Under the pieces are notes generated by a model. The model ran no database searches. It saw only the letters and a list, made by a program, of their open reading frames with translations, and was not told the origin of the DNA. Positions 16,513-52,420 of a stretch of 64,000 nucleotides of DNA are shown here, piece by piece. The translations under genes were made by a program, and so were the position numbers. This DNA is from Hyphomicrobiales bacterium. Lineage in GTDB: Bacteria > Pseudomonadota > Alphaproteobacteria > Rhizobiales > Rhodobiaceae. Every line of letters begins with the position of its first letter. The first letter of the stretch is position 1. The stretch lies in NCBI GenBank assembly GCA_002869065.1, contig PKTR01000005.1, forward strand, positions 186,001 through 250,000, given 5' to 3'.

Positions 16513-16647
16513 ATCCTCCGGCTTGACCGGAGGATCGGCCGGCAAGACGCACGTCCCCCAATTTGACCCCCCAAAAACCCGCCGATGGCGCCCCAACACA
16601 CACCCGCCGTGCATGTTGAGAACGATCCTCCGGTCAAGCCGGAGGAT
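16513..16647. repeat. REP-like doublet in inverted orientation (REPIN-like)
   Basis: Two copies of a palindrome with arms ATCCTCCGG and CCGGAGGAT. The first (16513-16535) has loop CTTGA and the second (16625-16647) loop TCAAG, so the second is the reverse complement of the first, 89 bases apart. Flanking GTC and GAC are also inverted. A near-identical doublet is at 41079-41214 and a single copy at 52398-52420. No RAYT transposase gene is in the window. Confidence 0.85.
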
Positions 16648-38988: not shown

Positions 38989-39011
38989 TCGCCAGCCTCG
39001 ATCAAAACGAC

Positions 39012-39046
39012 AAAAGGGCGCGATTTTTCGCGCCCTTTTCTTTTCC
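39012..39046 (+). terminator. Rho-independent terminator of ybhL
   Basis: A perfect 12-bp stem AAAAGGGCGCGA/TCGCGCCCTTTT with a TTTT loop and T-rich tail, 23 bases after the stop. Confidence 0.94.
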
Positions 39047-39110
39047 GGCGTAGTATCCTGCGGAAGATACCTCCCCCGCGCCCAAGATCGTTTCTGCCGG
39101 AATATTCGCC

Positions 39111-39647
39111 ATGACCACCACTCCAACCCTGCGCGCAGCCACCAAGGCCGACATCCCCGCCATCACCGCCATCTATGGCGCCGAGGTCCGCAACGCCCGC
39201 GCCTCCTTCGAACTGGACCCGCCGAGCGAAGCCGAGATGCGCAGCCGCTGGAAGAGCCTCGTCGACGGCGGCTATCCCTATATCGTTGCCGAGATCGACG
39301 GCGAGGTCGCCGGCTTCGGCTATTGCGGGCCCTACCGGCTGCGCCCGGCCTATTACTGGACGGTCGAGGATTCGGTCTATGTCGACCCGCGCTTCCGCGG
39401 CCGCAGCCTCGGGCTGACGCTCCTCAGCGAAGTGATGAAGCTCGCCGAAGAGGCCGGCTTCCGCCAGGCCGTCGCGGTCATCGGCGATTCCGCCAACCAC
39501 GCCTCGGTCCGCCTGCACGCCCGCCTCGGCTTCCGCCCCGTCGGCACGCTGCAGAACGTCGGCTACAAGCACGAACGCTGGCTCGACACGGTTCTGATGC
39601 AAAAGACGCTTGGAGAAGGGGCGGAGACAGCGCCCAAGGGGAAGTAG
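39111..39647 (+). CDS. GNAT N-acetyltransferase, phosphinothricin-acetyltransferase-like
   Basis: A 178-residue acetyl-CoA-dependent N-acetyltransferase. Features of the Bar/Pat-like (MddA/YncA) group are visible: the ITAIYGAEVRNARASFE N-terminal helix, the ED-x-VYV strand (VEDSVYVDPRFRGRSLGLTL, which contains the CoA pyrophosphate loop RGRSLG), and SANHASVRLHARLGFRPVGT. The natural substrate of such homologues is often methionine sulfone or sulfoximine; that is family knowledge only. The next gene, on the opposite strand, ends 15 bases away and is of different base composition. Confidence 0.88.
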   Translation: MTTTPTLRAATKADIPAITAIYGAEVRNARASFELDPPSEAEMRSRWKSLVDGGYPYIVAEIDGEVAGFGYCGPYRLRPAYYWTVEDSVYVDPRFRGRSLGLTLLSEVMKLAEEAGFRQAVAVIGDSANHASVRLHARLGFRPVGTLQNVGYKHERWLDTVLMQKTLGEGAETAPKGK

Positions 39648-39662
39648 TCGAGAAATTGGTAA

Positions 39663-40874
39663 CTAGTCGAGAGCATTTGGAAGGCCGTTGCCAATAATCA
39701 AATTATCGTAATCTGGTGTCTCGCCGTCGATGCGCTTCAGCAATGCTGTCCTTACCGCACCTGTCACAATCTCAAATTTCTGATAGTCCCCATCCTTGAG
39801 ATTCAACGATCCACTGTGCACAGCCTCCGACCCCAAATCATACCAACGCTTCACCGCTTCAAAAATTTCCCGGCGATCCAAAATCTCTTCTGCTGCATAA
39901 AAAGCTGCCCGCAAAGACAATCGATATCTATATTCGCCCTCCTTAGAGCCATCCAAAAAAAGGGCTTCAAGGCACGTTCGAAGGTCGATCGCGCGCTGAA
40001 CCACGCCTGTTTCCGAAAGACAATCATTGAGCTTCGCCATGGGGATACGAAGTTTCTTGCGCCATTTTGTATTCAGCGCAGCGAATTTTTTGTAGCGCAA
40101 TTCCGCTCGTTGAGGATCAAATCCGATGATCGGGGAATCCAAATAGACGGGTGTTCTGCGGGAATGGAGAGCGTAGGTAATATTGTCGTTTGCGCGCGGA
40201 ACTTCATCCGCCTGAATGACAGCCGAAGCAGCTATCTGCAACCCTCGACGGGAGATGAGGGAAAGCAACGCTATACGATCCTCCAAGTGCTCGATCACAG
40301 GGAAATCATCGGCCGTGTGCCGGTTCGGCCATGCCGCAGCGTCTCGGATATGCCGATTGACAGAGAATTCCTGACAAACCAAGTAATCACTTACGCCGAA
40401 CAGTTCGGCGCTCTGTATCCAGTTGTCACGAATGGCTCGGACAGGGGCATGCATGCGATGGACTATCTTGATGTCATTGGCAAATGACGCGTTTTCATCG
40501 GAGCTTCCGCAATAAAGCCCCTCCACCAGAACGATGCGATACGCCCGGACCTTCTCGTTTTTTAAGTAGCGAAACACGTCGGCCATCGCGCCTTCCGGAT
40601 CCGTCTCGACAGCCCGGCGCACCACCCATCTAAATAGATCCATTCTAGTGAATGGAGCGCCAATCGAGGCAATGCCGTGTACGTGGTTCTCATCGAACTT
40701 CTGAAATCTGGGAATCTCGGAAAAATATTTCGATAGCCTCTCAAATCTCGGGTGCCGGTCAAACTCGAACCAATAACGAGCCGTCCCGTCTACATCACGC
40801 GCTTCCCGAGAGTTCAAGATCGCCATTCCAACGGTTGCATTTCTGAGTTCGGCAATCACCTCATCGGGTTCCAT
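39663..40874 (-). CDS. Accessory protein of unknown function with HEPN-like C-terminus
   Basis: A 403-residue protein I cannot name. The first ~280 residues form an undefined domain (MDLFRWVVRRAVETDPEGAM, CQEFSVNRHIRDAAAWPNRH are typical stretches). The last ~120 residues are helical: RTCLEALFLDGSKEGEYRYR, then AEEILDRREIFEAVKRWYDL ending GSEAVHSGSL. This resembles ApeA-type HEPN modules with an R/K-x4-6-H-like end. Codon use and base composition are clearly AT-richer than in the neighbours, pointing to horizontal transfer. The start at 40874 has a GAGGAAAG site. It lies next to REP-like doublets. A defence or nuclease role is only a hypothesis. Confidence 0.55.
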   Translation of the reverse strand: MEPDEVIAELRNATVGMAILNSREARDVDGTARYWFEFDRHPRFERLSKYFSEIPRFQKFDENHVHGIASIGAPFTRMDLFRWVVRRAVETDPEGAMADVFRYLKNEKVRAYRIVLVEGLYCGSSDENASFANDIKIVHRMHAPVRAIRDNWIQSAELFGVSDYLVCQEFSVNRHIRDAAAWPNRHTADDFPVIEHLEDRIALLSLISRRGLQIAASAVIQADEVPRANDNITYALHSRRTPVYLDSPIIGFDPQRAELRYKKFAALNTKWRKKLRIPMAKLNDCLSETGVVQRAIDLRTCLEALFLDGSKEGEYRYRLSLRAAFYAAEEILDRREIFEAVKRWYDLGSEAVHSGSLNLKDGDYQKFEIVTGAVRTALLKRIDGETPDYDNLIIGNGLPNALD

Positions 40875-41078
40875 CGGACACCACTTTCCTCGTTTCTTTG
40901 GATTCGCGACTCCTTTAGCGAAGCATATCGCCGAACCGGCCGAATGCGAGACACAAGCTCCCAGTACCACTCAACGGCCCTTCGCCCCCGTACGGTCGAC
41001 TACCTCCCGTTAGCGAGCGCAACCATCATTGCACCGGCCTTAGCCACCCATCCTCCGGTCCCATCCCCAACCTGCGTC

Positions 41079-41214
41079 ATCCTCCGGCTTGACCGGAGGA
41101 TCGCTCTCGGCACGCTCCGGCGGTGCGTTTCGAGCCGAACGGACACCCTCGCCGGTTCAAGAAACGCCGATGCATTGCGCATGGCGGACCGATCCTCCGG
41201 TCAAGCCGGAGGAT
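41079..41214. repeat. REP-like doublet in inverted orientation (REPIN-like), second copy
   Basis: Palindromes at 41079-41101 (loop CTTGA) and 41192-41214 (loop TCAAG), the second inverted, 90 bases apart. The arms ATCCTCCGG/CCGGAGGAT are identical to those of the doublet at 16513-16647, while the sequence between the palindromes differs. Confidence 0.85.
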
Positions 41215-41332
41215 GGCGCGTGCAAGAGGTCCCGGAAGTGCCAGATCAAGCCACGTCGGCGCGAAAACCCATTGCCGACCCTCCGCCAACCCGACATGTC
41301 CCCATCGTCCCTCTACCCCAGTGCACCCAAAA

Positions 41333-41360
41333 CAAAAAAACGGCCCCCAACGGAACCGCT
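41333..41360 (-). terminator. Terminator of the lolA-like gene
   Basis: Minus-strand stem CGGTTCC/GGGGCCG (two G-T pairs) around GTTG, followed by seven T residues, about 70 bases past the stop at 41430. Confidence 0.8.
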
Positions 41361-41429
41361 TTCGAGTGTTCTGCCCGCTCTAAACGCGCGCTGACGACCG
41401 TAAGTCGCCACCCTCACCGCTCCACGACC

Positions 41430-42098
41430 CTATTTCGTGCGGCCGCGGTCGAGCATGAAGTGGCGGTAGTTGATGCGGAACAGCTTGTCGCTCGCCGGCT
41501 TGCCGGTTTCCACATTGTAGATCGCGACGGAGGTGTCGCCCTGCGCATCGGTGACGGTCCACTGCTTCAGTTCGTGGGTGCGCCCGTCGAACATCAGCGT
41601 CAGCTTGCCGTCGCCAAAGGCGCTCTCTTCCTCGATGGTGATCGTGACGAGATCCGGCTCGACCACCACATTGGTGATCTTGGCGTCGGCGGTCAGGTCG
41701 ATGTGATCGGCGAGCAGAAAGCGCAGCGGCGTCTTGTTGAGCGGCCACACGTCCTGCGTCGCCAGCCGCGTGTCGACCACGGCGACCGACTCGCCGTCGG
41801 CGACGATCTGCATGCGCGCCGGCTTGGCATATTCGAACCGCACCTTGCCCGGGCGGGCGAGGTGGAAGGTGCCTTCGGTGCGCGAGCCGTTCGGCGCGAA
41901 CTGCACGAAGTCGCCCTGCATGGTGCGGATGCCGTTGAAGTAGTCGTTGATCTTGCCGAGAACTTCCTTCTGCTCCTCGTTGAGATTGGCCGCCGCCGGC
42001 TGCGCGCCGGCAAGGCTGACCGCCGCGGAGAAGGCGGCAACAACGAGCGCCATGGTCATCGGGCGCAGCAGGGAAAGAATGCGGGTGCGGGCGAACAT
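41430..42098 (-). CDS. lolA: LolA-like outer-membrane lipoprotein carrier protein
   Basis: A 222-residue periplasmic protein. A long signal peptide (about 1-37, ending AGAQPAAA) precedes a LolA-type half-barrel: IRTMQGDFVQFAPNGSRTEG, FHLARPGKVRFEYAKPA, ADGESVAVVDTRLATQDVWP and TPLRFLLADHIDL. LolA shuttles lipoproteins from LolCDE to the outer membrane; divergent alphaproteobacterial homologues such as this one are usually given that role. The start at 42098 has a GGAGA site; an earlier in-frame ATG at 42155 would only lengthen the N-terminus. It is downstream of ftsK on the same strand. Confidence 0.85.
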   Translation of the reverse strand: MFARTRILSLLRPMTMALVVAAFSAAVSLAGAQPAAANLNEEQKEVLGKINDYFNGIRTMQGDFVQFAPNGSRTEGTFHLARPGKVRFEYAKPARMQIVADGESVAVVDTRLATQDVWPLNKTPLRFLLADHIDLTADAKITNVVVEPDLVTITIEEESAFGDGKLTLMFDGRTHELKQWTVTDAQGDTSVAIYNVETGKPASDKLFRINYRHFMLDRGRTK

Positions 42099-42214
42099 GC
42101 GTCGTCTCCGTCTGGTCGTGTCTCTGGCGCGCGGCGCAAAGCGCACGCTGCTCATTTTCTCCCCGTCCTGTCGCACGCCTCTATGGCGAGTTTGCGACCG
42201 GCGGAGCCGATTTA

Positions 42215-44878
42215 TCAGTCGTACTCTTCACGCTCGGGCACGAGGATTTCCCGCTTGCCCGCATGGTTGGCAGAACCGACCACGCCTTCCTGCTCCATCC
42301 GCTCGATGATCGAGGCCGCCCGGTTGTAGCCGATCGACAGGCGGCGCTGGATGTAGCTGGTCGAGGCCTTGCGGTCGCGCAGAACGACGGCGACGGCCTT
42401 GTCGTAGAGATCGTTGGAGTCGTCATCACCGCTCGACAGCATTTCGAACTGGCTCGGCTCCTGCTCGTCCTCGTTGGTCACCTGATCGAGATACTCCGGC
42501 GAGCCCTGGCACTTCAGATGGGCGACGATGTCCTCCACCTCGCCATCGGCGACGAACGGACCGTGCACGCGCTGGATGCGCCCGCCGCCGGCCATGTAGA
42601 GCATGTCGCCCATGCCGAGCAGCTGCTCCGCGCCCTGCTCGCCGAGAATGGTGCGGCTGTCGATCTTCGACGTCACCTGGAACGAGATGCGCGTCGGGAA
42701 GTTCGCCTTGATGGTGCCGGTGATGACGTCGACCGAGGGGCGCTGCGTCGCCATGATGATGTGGATGCCGGCGGCGCGTGCCATCTGCGCCAGCCGCTGG
42801 ATCGCGCCTTCGATGTCCTTGCCGGCGACCATCATCAGGTCGGCCATCTCGTCGACGATCACAACGATATAGGGCATCGGCTGCAGATCGAGCTCTTCTT
42901 CCTCGTAGATCGCCTCGCCGGTCTCGCGGTCGAACCCGGTCTGCACCGTGCGCGAGATCACCTCGCCCTTCTTCAGCGCCTGCGCGACGCGGGTGTTGTA
43001 GCCGTCGATGTTGCGCACGCCGAGCTTCGACATGTTGCGGTAGCGATCTTCCATCTCGCGCACCGTCCACTTCAGCGCGACAACGGCCTTTTTCGGGTCG
43101 GTCACCACCGGCGACAGCAGATGCGGGATGCCGTCATAGACGGAGAGTTCGAGCATCTTCGGGTCGATCATGATCAGCTTGCACTGGTCCGGCGACATCC
43201 GGTAGAGCAACGACAGGATCATGGTGTTGATCGACACCGACTTGCCCGAGCCGGTGGTGCCGGCCACGAGCAGATGCGGCATGCGGGCGAGATCGGCAAT
43301 CACCGGCTCACCGCCGATCGTCTTGCCGAGGCACATCGGCAGCTTGGCCTTCGACTTCTCGAAGTCCTGCGAGGCGAGCAGCTCGCGCAGATAGACCGTC
43401 TCGCGGCGCTGGTTCGGCAGTTCGATGCCGATCGCGTTCTTGCCCGGAATGACGGCGACGCGGGCCGAGATCGCGCTCATCGAGCGGGCGATATCATCGG
43501 CAAGGCCGATCACCCGCGACGACTTGATGCCGGGCGCGGGTTCGAGTTCATAGAGCGTAACGACGGGACCCGGGCGCACGGCCATGATCTCGCCGCGCAC
43601 GCCGAAATCCTCCAGCACGCCTTCGAGCAGGCGGGCGTTCTGTTCCAGCGCATCCGCGCTCATGCCCGGCTTGCGCCCGGTCGCCTGCGGCTCGGCGAGC
43701 AGTTGCAGCGGCGGGTATTCGTAGGCTTCCAGATTGATCAGCGCCGGCTGCGCCTCGCGCAGCACGCGACGGCCGGGCTTCAGGCTCGGCGCCGGCTCAT
43801 CGACCCGAACGCGCGTTGTGCGCGGCGGTTCCGATACGGGCATGGCGCGGGCCGGCTCCGGCTCGGGAACCTGACGGAACAGATCGTCTTCGTCGGCGAG
43901 GTCGGCTTCATAGAGCGCCTCGTCGTCGCGGTCCTCGCCATGCCAGCGCGGCTCGACCCGGTCGCCCTTGTAGAACTCCTCAAGCCCGTCATCCTCCGCT
44001 CCGAGGATCGACTGGCGTGCCTGACGGCCGATCTCTTTCAGCTTCGATGCCGACGCACGCGGCTTCTTCACCGACAGTACGTCGCGCCGACGTCGGAACA
44101 GCACGCGCTGCACCAGCGTCTTCGCCGACAGGCCGAAATGGGCGAGCGCGCCGAAGGTCGTCGCGAAACGGCCGCCCTCTTCCTCGTCGTCATCGTCGTA
44201 GTCGTCGACAACCGGCTGCGCCTTGCGCTTGGCCGCGCGTTTGTCGTTCACGGCGCGCTTCGCCTGTTTCTTCGCCTTCGCCTCGACGGCTGCATCCGCC
44301 GGCGCCCCTTGCGGCCAGCCGCAGGCATGCACGAAGAAGGCAAGCGCGGCGATGCCGAACACCGCGGCCACGGCCATTGCCGGAACGCCGAGCAGCGGCG
44401 CACCGAGGAACGCCATCGGCAGCCGCAAAACGAAATCGCCGACGACACCACCGAGCCCGGTCGGCAGCGGCCAGGTCACCGGCGGGGAAATCACGGCAAA
44501 CAGCCCCGTGGCGAGCAGCACCGCCAGCGCCCAGCTCGCGATACGCCGCCGGGTGATCGAAACCGTGCGGCCGAACACCATCCGCCAGCCCCACACCGCG
44601 ACCGGCAGCAGGATCACCGCCGCGCCGATACCGACGATCTGGATCAGGCTGTCGGCGATGAGCGCACCCGGCGTGCCGAGCAGATTGCGCACCGGCCCGT
44701 CGGTCGCATTGTTCAGGCTCGGATCGGTCACCGACCAGCTCGCCAGCGCGGCGGAAAGCACCGCGACTCCGGCCAGCATCACGAGGCCGATCGGCACCGA
44801 CAGATTGCGCCGCAGGAACGAGACATCCTCGTCGCGATCGACCATCAGGGGCGGAGGAGATGTGCGGGATGCGCGCAT
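42215..44878 (-). CDS. ftsK: DNA translocase FtsK
   Basis: Septum-anchored motor that clears and orients chromosome ends during division. 887 residues: four or five N-terminal membrane helices (about 25-195), a charged linker, the RecA-like motor with Walker [13 protein letters not shown] and Walker [12 protein letters not shown], and a C-terminal winged-helix gamma domain ([20 protein letters not shown] onward) that reads KOPS-type sites. All are intact. The start at 44878 gives the family N-terminus. It begins 14 bases after the stop of the aminotransferase gene, with lolA downstream. Confidence 0.96.
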
Positions 44879-52397: not shown

Positions 52398-52420
52398 ATC
52401 CTCCGGTCAAGCCGGAGGAT
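52398..52420. repeat. Single REP-like palindrome
   Basis: Arms ATCCTCCGG/CCGGAGGAT with a TCAAG loop and GAC after it, identical to the second member of the doublet at 16513-16647. It lies between two convergent genes and could act as a transcription end. Confidence 0.8.

Follow-up and report, generated by a model that had tools for sequence, protein, structure and literature searches.

Bacterial immunity depends centrally on HEPN RNases, which are recognized chiefly by their Rx4-6H motif. A stretch of 64,000 nucleotides from a Hyphomicrobiales bacterium (contig PKTR01000005.1, positions 186,001 to 250,000; hereafter the window) carries a gene that the initial annotation took for a single-gene defence cargo, likening the C-terminal helices of its product to the HEPN domain of ApeA-type proteins. 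The locus raises the question of what this protein is related to, and of what such a domain might do when, as we found, the motif by which these enzymes are recognized is broken.

A foreign gene at a point of rearrangement

The reading frame of the gene is unbroken across 403 codons and is preceded by a ribosome-binding-like sequence (Table 1), with an alternative GTG start at 40970, which would give a protein of 435 aa, as a further possibility. Its G+C content is 51% (0.55 at third positions) against approximately 65% in the region, and its codon adaptation to the other genes of the window is 0.378 (mean 0.666, sd 0.103). Of the 45 genes compared it fits worst, no lower value being found among the other 44, which are candidates picked by a simple rule on composition. 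These figures bear out the deviating base composition and codon use remarked on earlier, and the gene, which is present in one copy in its own genome, is of foreign origin.

Table 1 Features of the locus, in window coordinates.
Feature	Coordinates	Strand	Basis
Gene for a 403-aa stand-alone ApeA-related HEPN protein	39663..40874	-	Intact ORF, ATG start
GAGGAAA, ribosome-binding-like	40885..40891	-	10 nt before the ATG, read from sequence
N-terminal region, residues 1-250, unassigned fold, putative sensor or regulatory role	40125..40874	-	No Pfam or PADLOC match
C-terminal HEPN-like core, residues 279-382	39729..40040	-	28-member profile against the PDB; phrog_28161 match
Degenerate Rx4H motif, G348-S-E-A-V-H353, glycine for arginine	39816..39833	-	28-member alignment
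R299 codon, arginine private to three members	39978..39980	-	R in 3/3 members without the motif arginine, 0/25 others
E303 codon, conserved acidic residue in the earlier predicted helix	39966..39968	-	E in 27/28 members; aligns with LWIAIE of Ec2ApeA
Synteny-breakpoint segment, GNAT gene to LolA gene, holding the HEPN-like gene and a REP doublet	39648..41429	.	Sister-genome comparison
REP-like inverted doublet	41074..41219	.	33-nt inverted arms, 41074-41106 and 41187-41219

No match to the gene was obtained in the two sister genomes of its genus (one of three genomes of the family was positive, namely its own). Both sister genomes, G060 and G012, conserve an FtsX-Bax1-GNAT block and an AAT-FtsK-LolA block, whose match to the window reaches up to a few tens of bases from the breakpoint segment. 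The two blocks lie approximately 37 kb apart in the sister genomes, with GNAT and LolA co-oriented, whereas in the window these two genes face each other, which places the HEPN-like gene at a rearrangement point. A search of the gene's own genome with a putative ORF located after LolA in one of the sister genomes gave no match. No tRNA was found in the window and no Rfam family at 39000-42500.

The REP doublets said to lie beside the gene were confirmed by the inverted 33-nt arms, and the 23-nt core of the repeat has five exact copies in the window against none in 100 shuffles. The doublet is real, yet not specific to the HEPN-like gene; a further inverted pair is found at 16513/16625. The palindrome-like core forms two inverted doublets, at 16513-16647 and 41079-41214, with a start-to-start spacing of 112-113 nt, and a single exact copy is located at 52398-52420.

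A rare family of HEPN-like proteins

In single-sequence scans, the window protein matched no family in Pfam, PADLOC or NCBIfam, and a phmmer search against the PDB returned nothing credible. In PHROGs it matched phrog_28161 (E 7.6e-7) through residues 298-363, hence the C-terminal part only, and had one more match at chance level. This phage family of unannotated function was also matched, at E ≤ 0.01, by 17 of the 28 members of the family described below. Neither genome contigs nor viral contigs yielded a relative when scanned with the single protein, and three more viral scans and tblastn against phages were negative too; no phage-borne member was thus found, despite the existence of phrog_28161. 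On plasmids, tblastn retrieved two Cupriavidus proteins annotated as 'HEPN domain-containing protein' (WP_150373976.1 and WP_220631740.1). These are similar to the window protein in length (422 and 435 aa) and layout, with approximately 29% identity over the matched C-terminal part, but retain the arginine of the HEPN motif and lack one at position 299.

Searches at increasing taxonomic depth matched 6 of 397 genomes of the order (single protein), 13 of 385 of the class (profile A1) and 3 of 398 of the phylum (profile A2), the source genome being included in each count. Profile A3 matched 6 of 369 genomes in the class of a further member-bearing genome, G850, and a Roseibium member was the sole match of profile A2 among 87 genomes of its family. 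The family is rare. Distinct members from the fetched loci that passed E 1e-3 against A3, itself built from 12 of the members later gathered with it, make up the 28-member set; the collecting profiles reward the motif, and relatives without it may be undercounted. Locus L015 (genome G398), whose match lies at a contig edge, stands outside the set. Genome G850 harbours two members (L050/L060 and L066) that fall in different subgroups of the tree and both carry the motif arginine. Pfam scans of 12 members gave weak single matches to HEPN_RiboL-PSP (E 0.096) and DUF3644 (E 0.23), with none for the window protein, and among the matches listed in a search of open-access papers we recognized no description of this HEPN-like family or of an arginine swap in it.

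Relation of the C-terminal domain to ApeA

Searched against the PDB, a 28-member profile of the C-terminal ~120 residues (A9) placed five solved ApeA chains on top, with E-values from 2.6e-5 to 0.0021 that, where alignments were shown, sum over two stretches; for Ec2ApeA these score 3.8 and 0.17 separately, and significance comes from the sum. The chains were those of Ec2ApeA (four sequences, best E 2.6e-5) and Ec3ApeA (0.0021, identified by partial name), followed by two designed knot proteins (0.012 and 0.046) and by Ec1ApeA (0.063, also identified by partial name). In the alignment with Ec2ApeA, LWIAIE corresponds to DLxIALE of the family and YRTRNLIVH to YDLRSKxVH; the order of the E helix and RNLIVH is correct with the 28-member profile, as it is with a 12-member profile (E 0.003). 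Judged from these profile alignments, the C-terminal domain is homologous to the HEPN domain of ApeA. The likeness to that domain first seen in the AVHSG segment of the window protein therefore holds when the family profile is used, with five ApeA chains on top, and was not recovered with the single sequence.

A profile-profile comparison with three PF18739 proteins, the C-terminal part included, was not significant, which counts against close membership in ApeA. The PADLOC ApeA models matched none of nine family members (the window protein and eight others), and PF18739 had no match in the gene's own genome. As a control, PF18739 scored above its cut-off in 3 of 121 genomes, and the PADLOC ApeA models matched both of the proteins from these that were scanned (two of the three). 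Since the Pfam and PADLOC models of ApeA gave no match, we consider the protein ApeA-related and do not file it as ApeA. Compared with Ec2ApeA (PDB 9hxd and siblings; PF18739, HEPN_Apea), it has in common a C-terminal HEPN domain in which an E helix is followed by the Rx4H helix, and differs in size (403 against 593 aa), in spacing (the aligned stretches are 20 profile positions apart, those of Ec2ApeA 106 residues) and in the glycine that stands in place of the motif arginine.

When the three members without the motif arginine were given a profile of their own, its search of the PDB listed no ApeA chain at E-values of up to 5. Ribosomal protein L23 was matched by the motif region with this profile (E 0.028) and by one member (E 0.013), which we attribute to chance.

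Loss of the motif arginine and a private arginine at position 299

The motif R-[SN]-x3-H is found in 25 of the 28 members, the arginine being absent from the remaining three, and both the motif histidine (H353) and Y345 are present in all 28. In the window protein the HEPN Rx4-6H motif is broken, with the histidine in place and the arginine missing, a feature that the initial annotation missed and that is new in this analysis. The motif reads GSEAVH in the window protein, ASTAVH in Roseibium aggregatum IAM 12614 (L002 = L049) and TSKSIH in an alphaproteobacterial metagenome-assembled genome (L009 = L048). All three proteins retain E303, Y345, S349 and H353; elsewhere in the family the only exception at the E303 column is a histidine in L020, whose row is doubtful there.

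Four residues before E303, an arginine (R299) occurs in exactly the three members that lack the motif arginine, the other 25 having G, A, S, C, M, I, L, V, T or F at this position. The trio agrees in 21 columns of the alignment, and position 299 is the sole one with a residue absent from all other members. An alignment-free reading anchored on the motif gave the same pattern in the 27 members with E303. Both the loss of the motif arginine and the private R299 are shown by these data. In a test that ignores relatedness, 9 of 3275 other triples shared a private arginine, as did 3 of the 860 whose identity was similar. In a tree of 27 of the 28 members (L014 was left out as too short), the trio lies on one side of a branch with support 89/80 and has long end branches; this grouping means that the arginine swap may be a single old event. 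The R299 pattern suggests a relocated catalytic arginine.

As the motif arginine is absent, RNase activity is not to be assumed, and the main rival explanation is a catalytically dead HEPN domain that merely binds RNA, a nucleotide or a partner, the protein acting as a sensor, scaffold or regulator. The arginine is gone in all three members found of the sublineage. It was reported to be required in PrrC and in the KEN domain of RNase L, and HEPN domains without any conserved polar residues are read as binding domains (PMC3710099). Against this explanation, H353, S349, Y345 and E303 are kept in three proteins whose C-terminal domains share only 26-29% pairwise identity; some of these residues should have been lost from a dead domain, and their retention at such distance argues against simple decay. 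The privacy of R299 to the same three proteins also tells against a dead domain, which we regard as fairly unlikely.

Two described kinds of HEPN protein, likened here to the window protein by description only, lack the canonical motif as well. The HEPN effector of retron-Kva2 (type IX) has no canonical motif and is reported to need H64 and R122, residues far apart in sequence (PMC13405049); unlike the window gene, it belongs to a retron operon with other proteins. In the Parep1/8 HEPN-T families the histidine is kept and the motif arginine lost, and other conserved basic residues are proposed as stand-ins (PMC3710099). They differ from the window protein in being archaeal and listed with the nucleotidyltransferase-associated HEPN group. 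The HEPN RNases studied are described as apparently metal-independent, with the motif histidine essential in several and the arginine in some (PMC3710099).

The missing arginine could also mark a decaying foreign gene of no current function, a notion with which its single copy, its absence from the matches in two sister genomes and the great rarity of the family would agree. We consider this very improbable, given the frame intact over 403 codons, the ribosome-binding-like site and the fact that the loss is common to two far-off proteins, that of Roseibium and that of the alphaproteobacterial metagenome-assembled genome, on account of which it probably predates the arrival of the gene in this genome.

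N-terminal region and structure prediction

Outside the C-terminal domain no Pfam or PADLOC match was obtained, in keeping with the earlier remark that the N-terminal part resembles nothing known. Two relatives can be aligned with the region throughout its length. No relation between the N-terminal parts of the window protein and ApeA emerged when profiles were compared with those of three PF18739 proteins; ApeA-NTD1 is described as a domain of ~300 aa consisting mostly of beta strands (PMC3710099).

From three sequences AlphaFold produced no model fit for use, the mean pLDDT being 36.7 over the whole protein and 49.5 over its C-terminal part, and at these values we make no claim on the fold. 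The C-terminal model consists entirely of helices, at its low mean pLDDT, and the helix to which E303 is assigned comes from these low-confidence models. A Foldseek search with it had no match at E ≤ 0.001 and listed a HEPN toxin at rank 22 (E 6.2), a result set aside for want of a usable model.

One candidate for the N-terminal part of the trio was rejected. The homing endonuclease I-MsoI appeared in the PDB search at E 2.3e-5, a value that arises from double counting of one 58-residue match in a duplicated chain, with E about 0.08 for I-MsoI chains taken singly. Unlike this value, the sum obtained for ApeA joins two distinct segments of the profile, correctly ordered.

Neighbourhoods of relatives

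We examined nine relatives, with at least ~8 kb of context if the record was long enough, and ran PADLOC on ten chosen neighbours from five of these loci. Defence-type genes lie near five of the nine. Immediately upstream of L042, the Roseibium member without the motif arginine, is a divergent helicase-DUF2290 pair (PADLOC E 1.8e-300 and 9.6e-78), with DUF4238, HipA-like and relaxase genes also nearby. L007 is accompanied by an AbiC/AbiP-like protein and by genes annotated as Wadjet, L044 adjoins a weakly NucC-like PD-(D/E)xK protein and has an integrase too, at L008 there are an HNH restriction-type gene and another whose annotation is integrase family, and L054 has a PDC-M28B candidate and an integrase within ~6 kb. 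An integrase and no recognized defence gene were seen at L043, and at L045, L048 and L053 no defence or mobile gene was recognized by eye or annotation. The suggestion that homologues may cluster near defence genes is supported by five of the nine relatives and not by the three without a recognized defence or mobile neighbour.

Three further observations concern these loci. At L044 (4238-8650), a 1470-aa protein without Pfam or PADLOC match is encoded between the integrase and the PD-(D/E)xK protein. At L008 (5906-10468), on a Cupriavidus pinatubonensis plasmid, the HNH nuclease, 'phage integrase family' and HEPN genes overlap or lie within a few bases of one another in an operon-like manner. 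Upstream of the family member at L045 (7962-8478) lie two small genes that look like a BrnT/BrnA toxin-antitoxin pair.

The window gene itself has no defence neighbour and is flanked by the GNAT and LolA genes. Its stand-alone placement, shared with L048, and the putative BrnT/BrnA-like pair beside L045 would suit an active HEPN RNase outside defence, which might be a toxin in a toxin-antitoxin or stress system or else the product of an accessory gene that serves the cell, and HEPN toxins are common. There is, however, no partner gene in the window, where the flanking GNAT and LolA blocks are those present in both sister genomes without the HEPN-like gene, and defence-type genes lie near five of the nine relatives, so that a role of this kind appears improbable.

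Proposed function

Our leading, if tentative, reading, whose probability we put somewhat below even, is that the window protein is a phage-triggered defence RNase of abortive-infection type, however its active site is built. The more specific proposal of an ApeA-related lineage of defence RNases, encoded by a single gene with a putative N-terminal sensor, in which the catalytic arginine moved to position 299 while the histidine was kept, is unlikely to be right in every part. For the leading reading we infer a course of events in which the N-terminal part would sense an infection trigger or hold the HEPN domain off and, once the trigger is sensed, HEPN dimers would cut RNA in the cell, thereby protecting against phage. 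The active site of the sublineage would have been rewired after the Rx4H arginine was lost (G348 in the window protein), with R299, on the earlier helix four residues before E303, as a possible stand-in beside H353.

A rare, foreign, single-gene ApeA-related HEPN protein is in itself ordinary; what is unusual is an active site that is broken and possibly rebuilt. The family escapes the Pfam and PADLOC models tried, though several of its members are located near defence genes. The R299/H353 pair offers a direct two-residue test of the proposal. If it is true, a HEPN active site can be re-plumbed inside one family, and annotation and searches based on the motif would call active HEPN enzymes dead.
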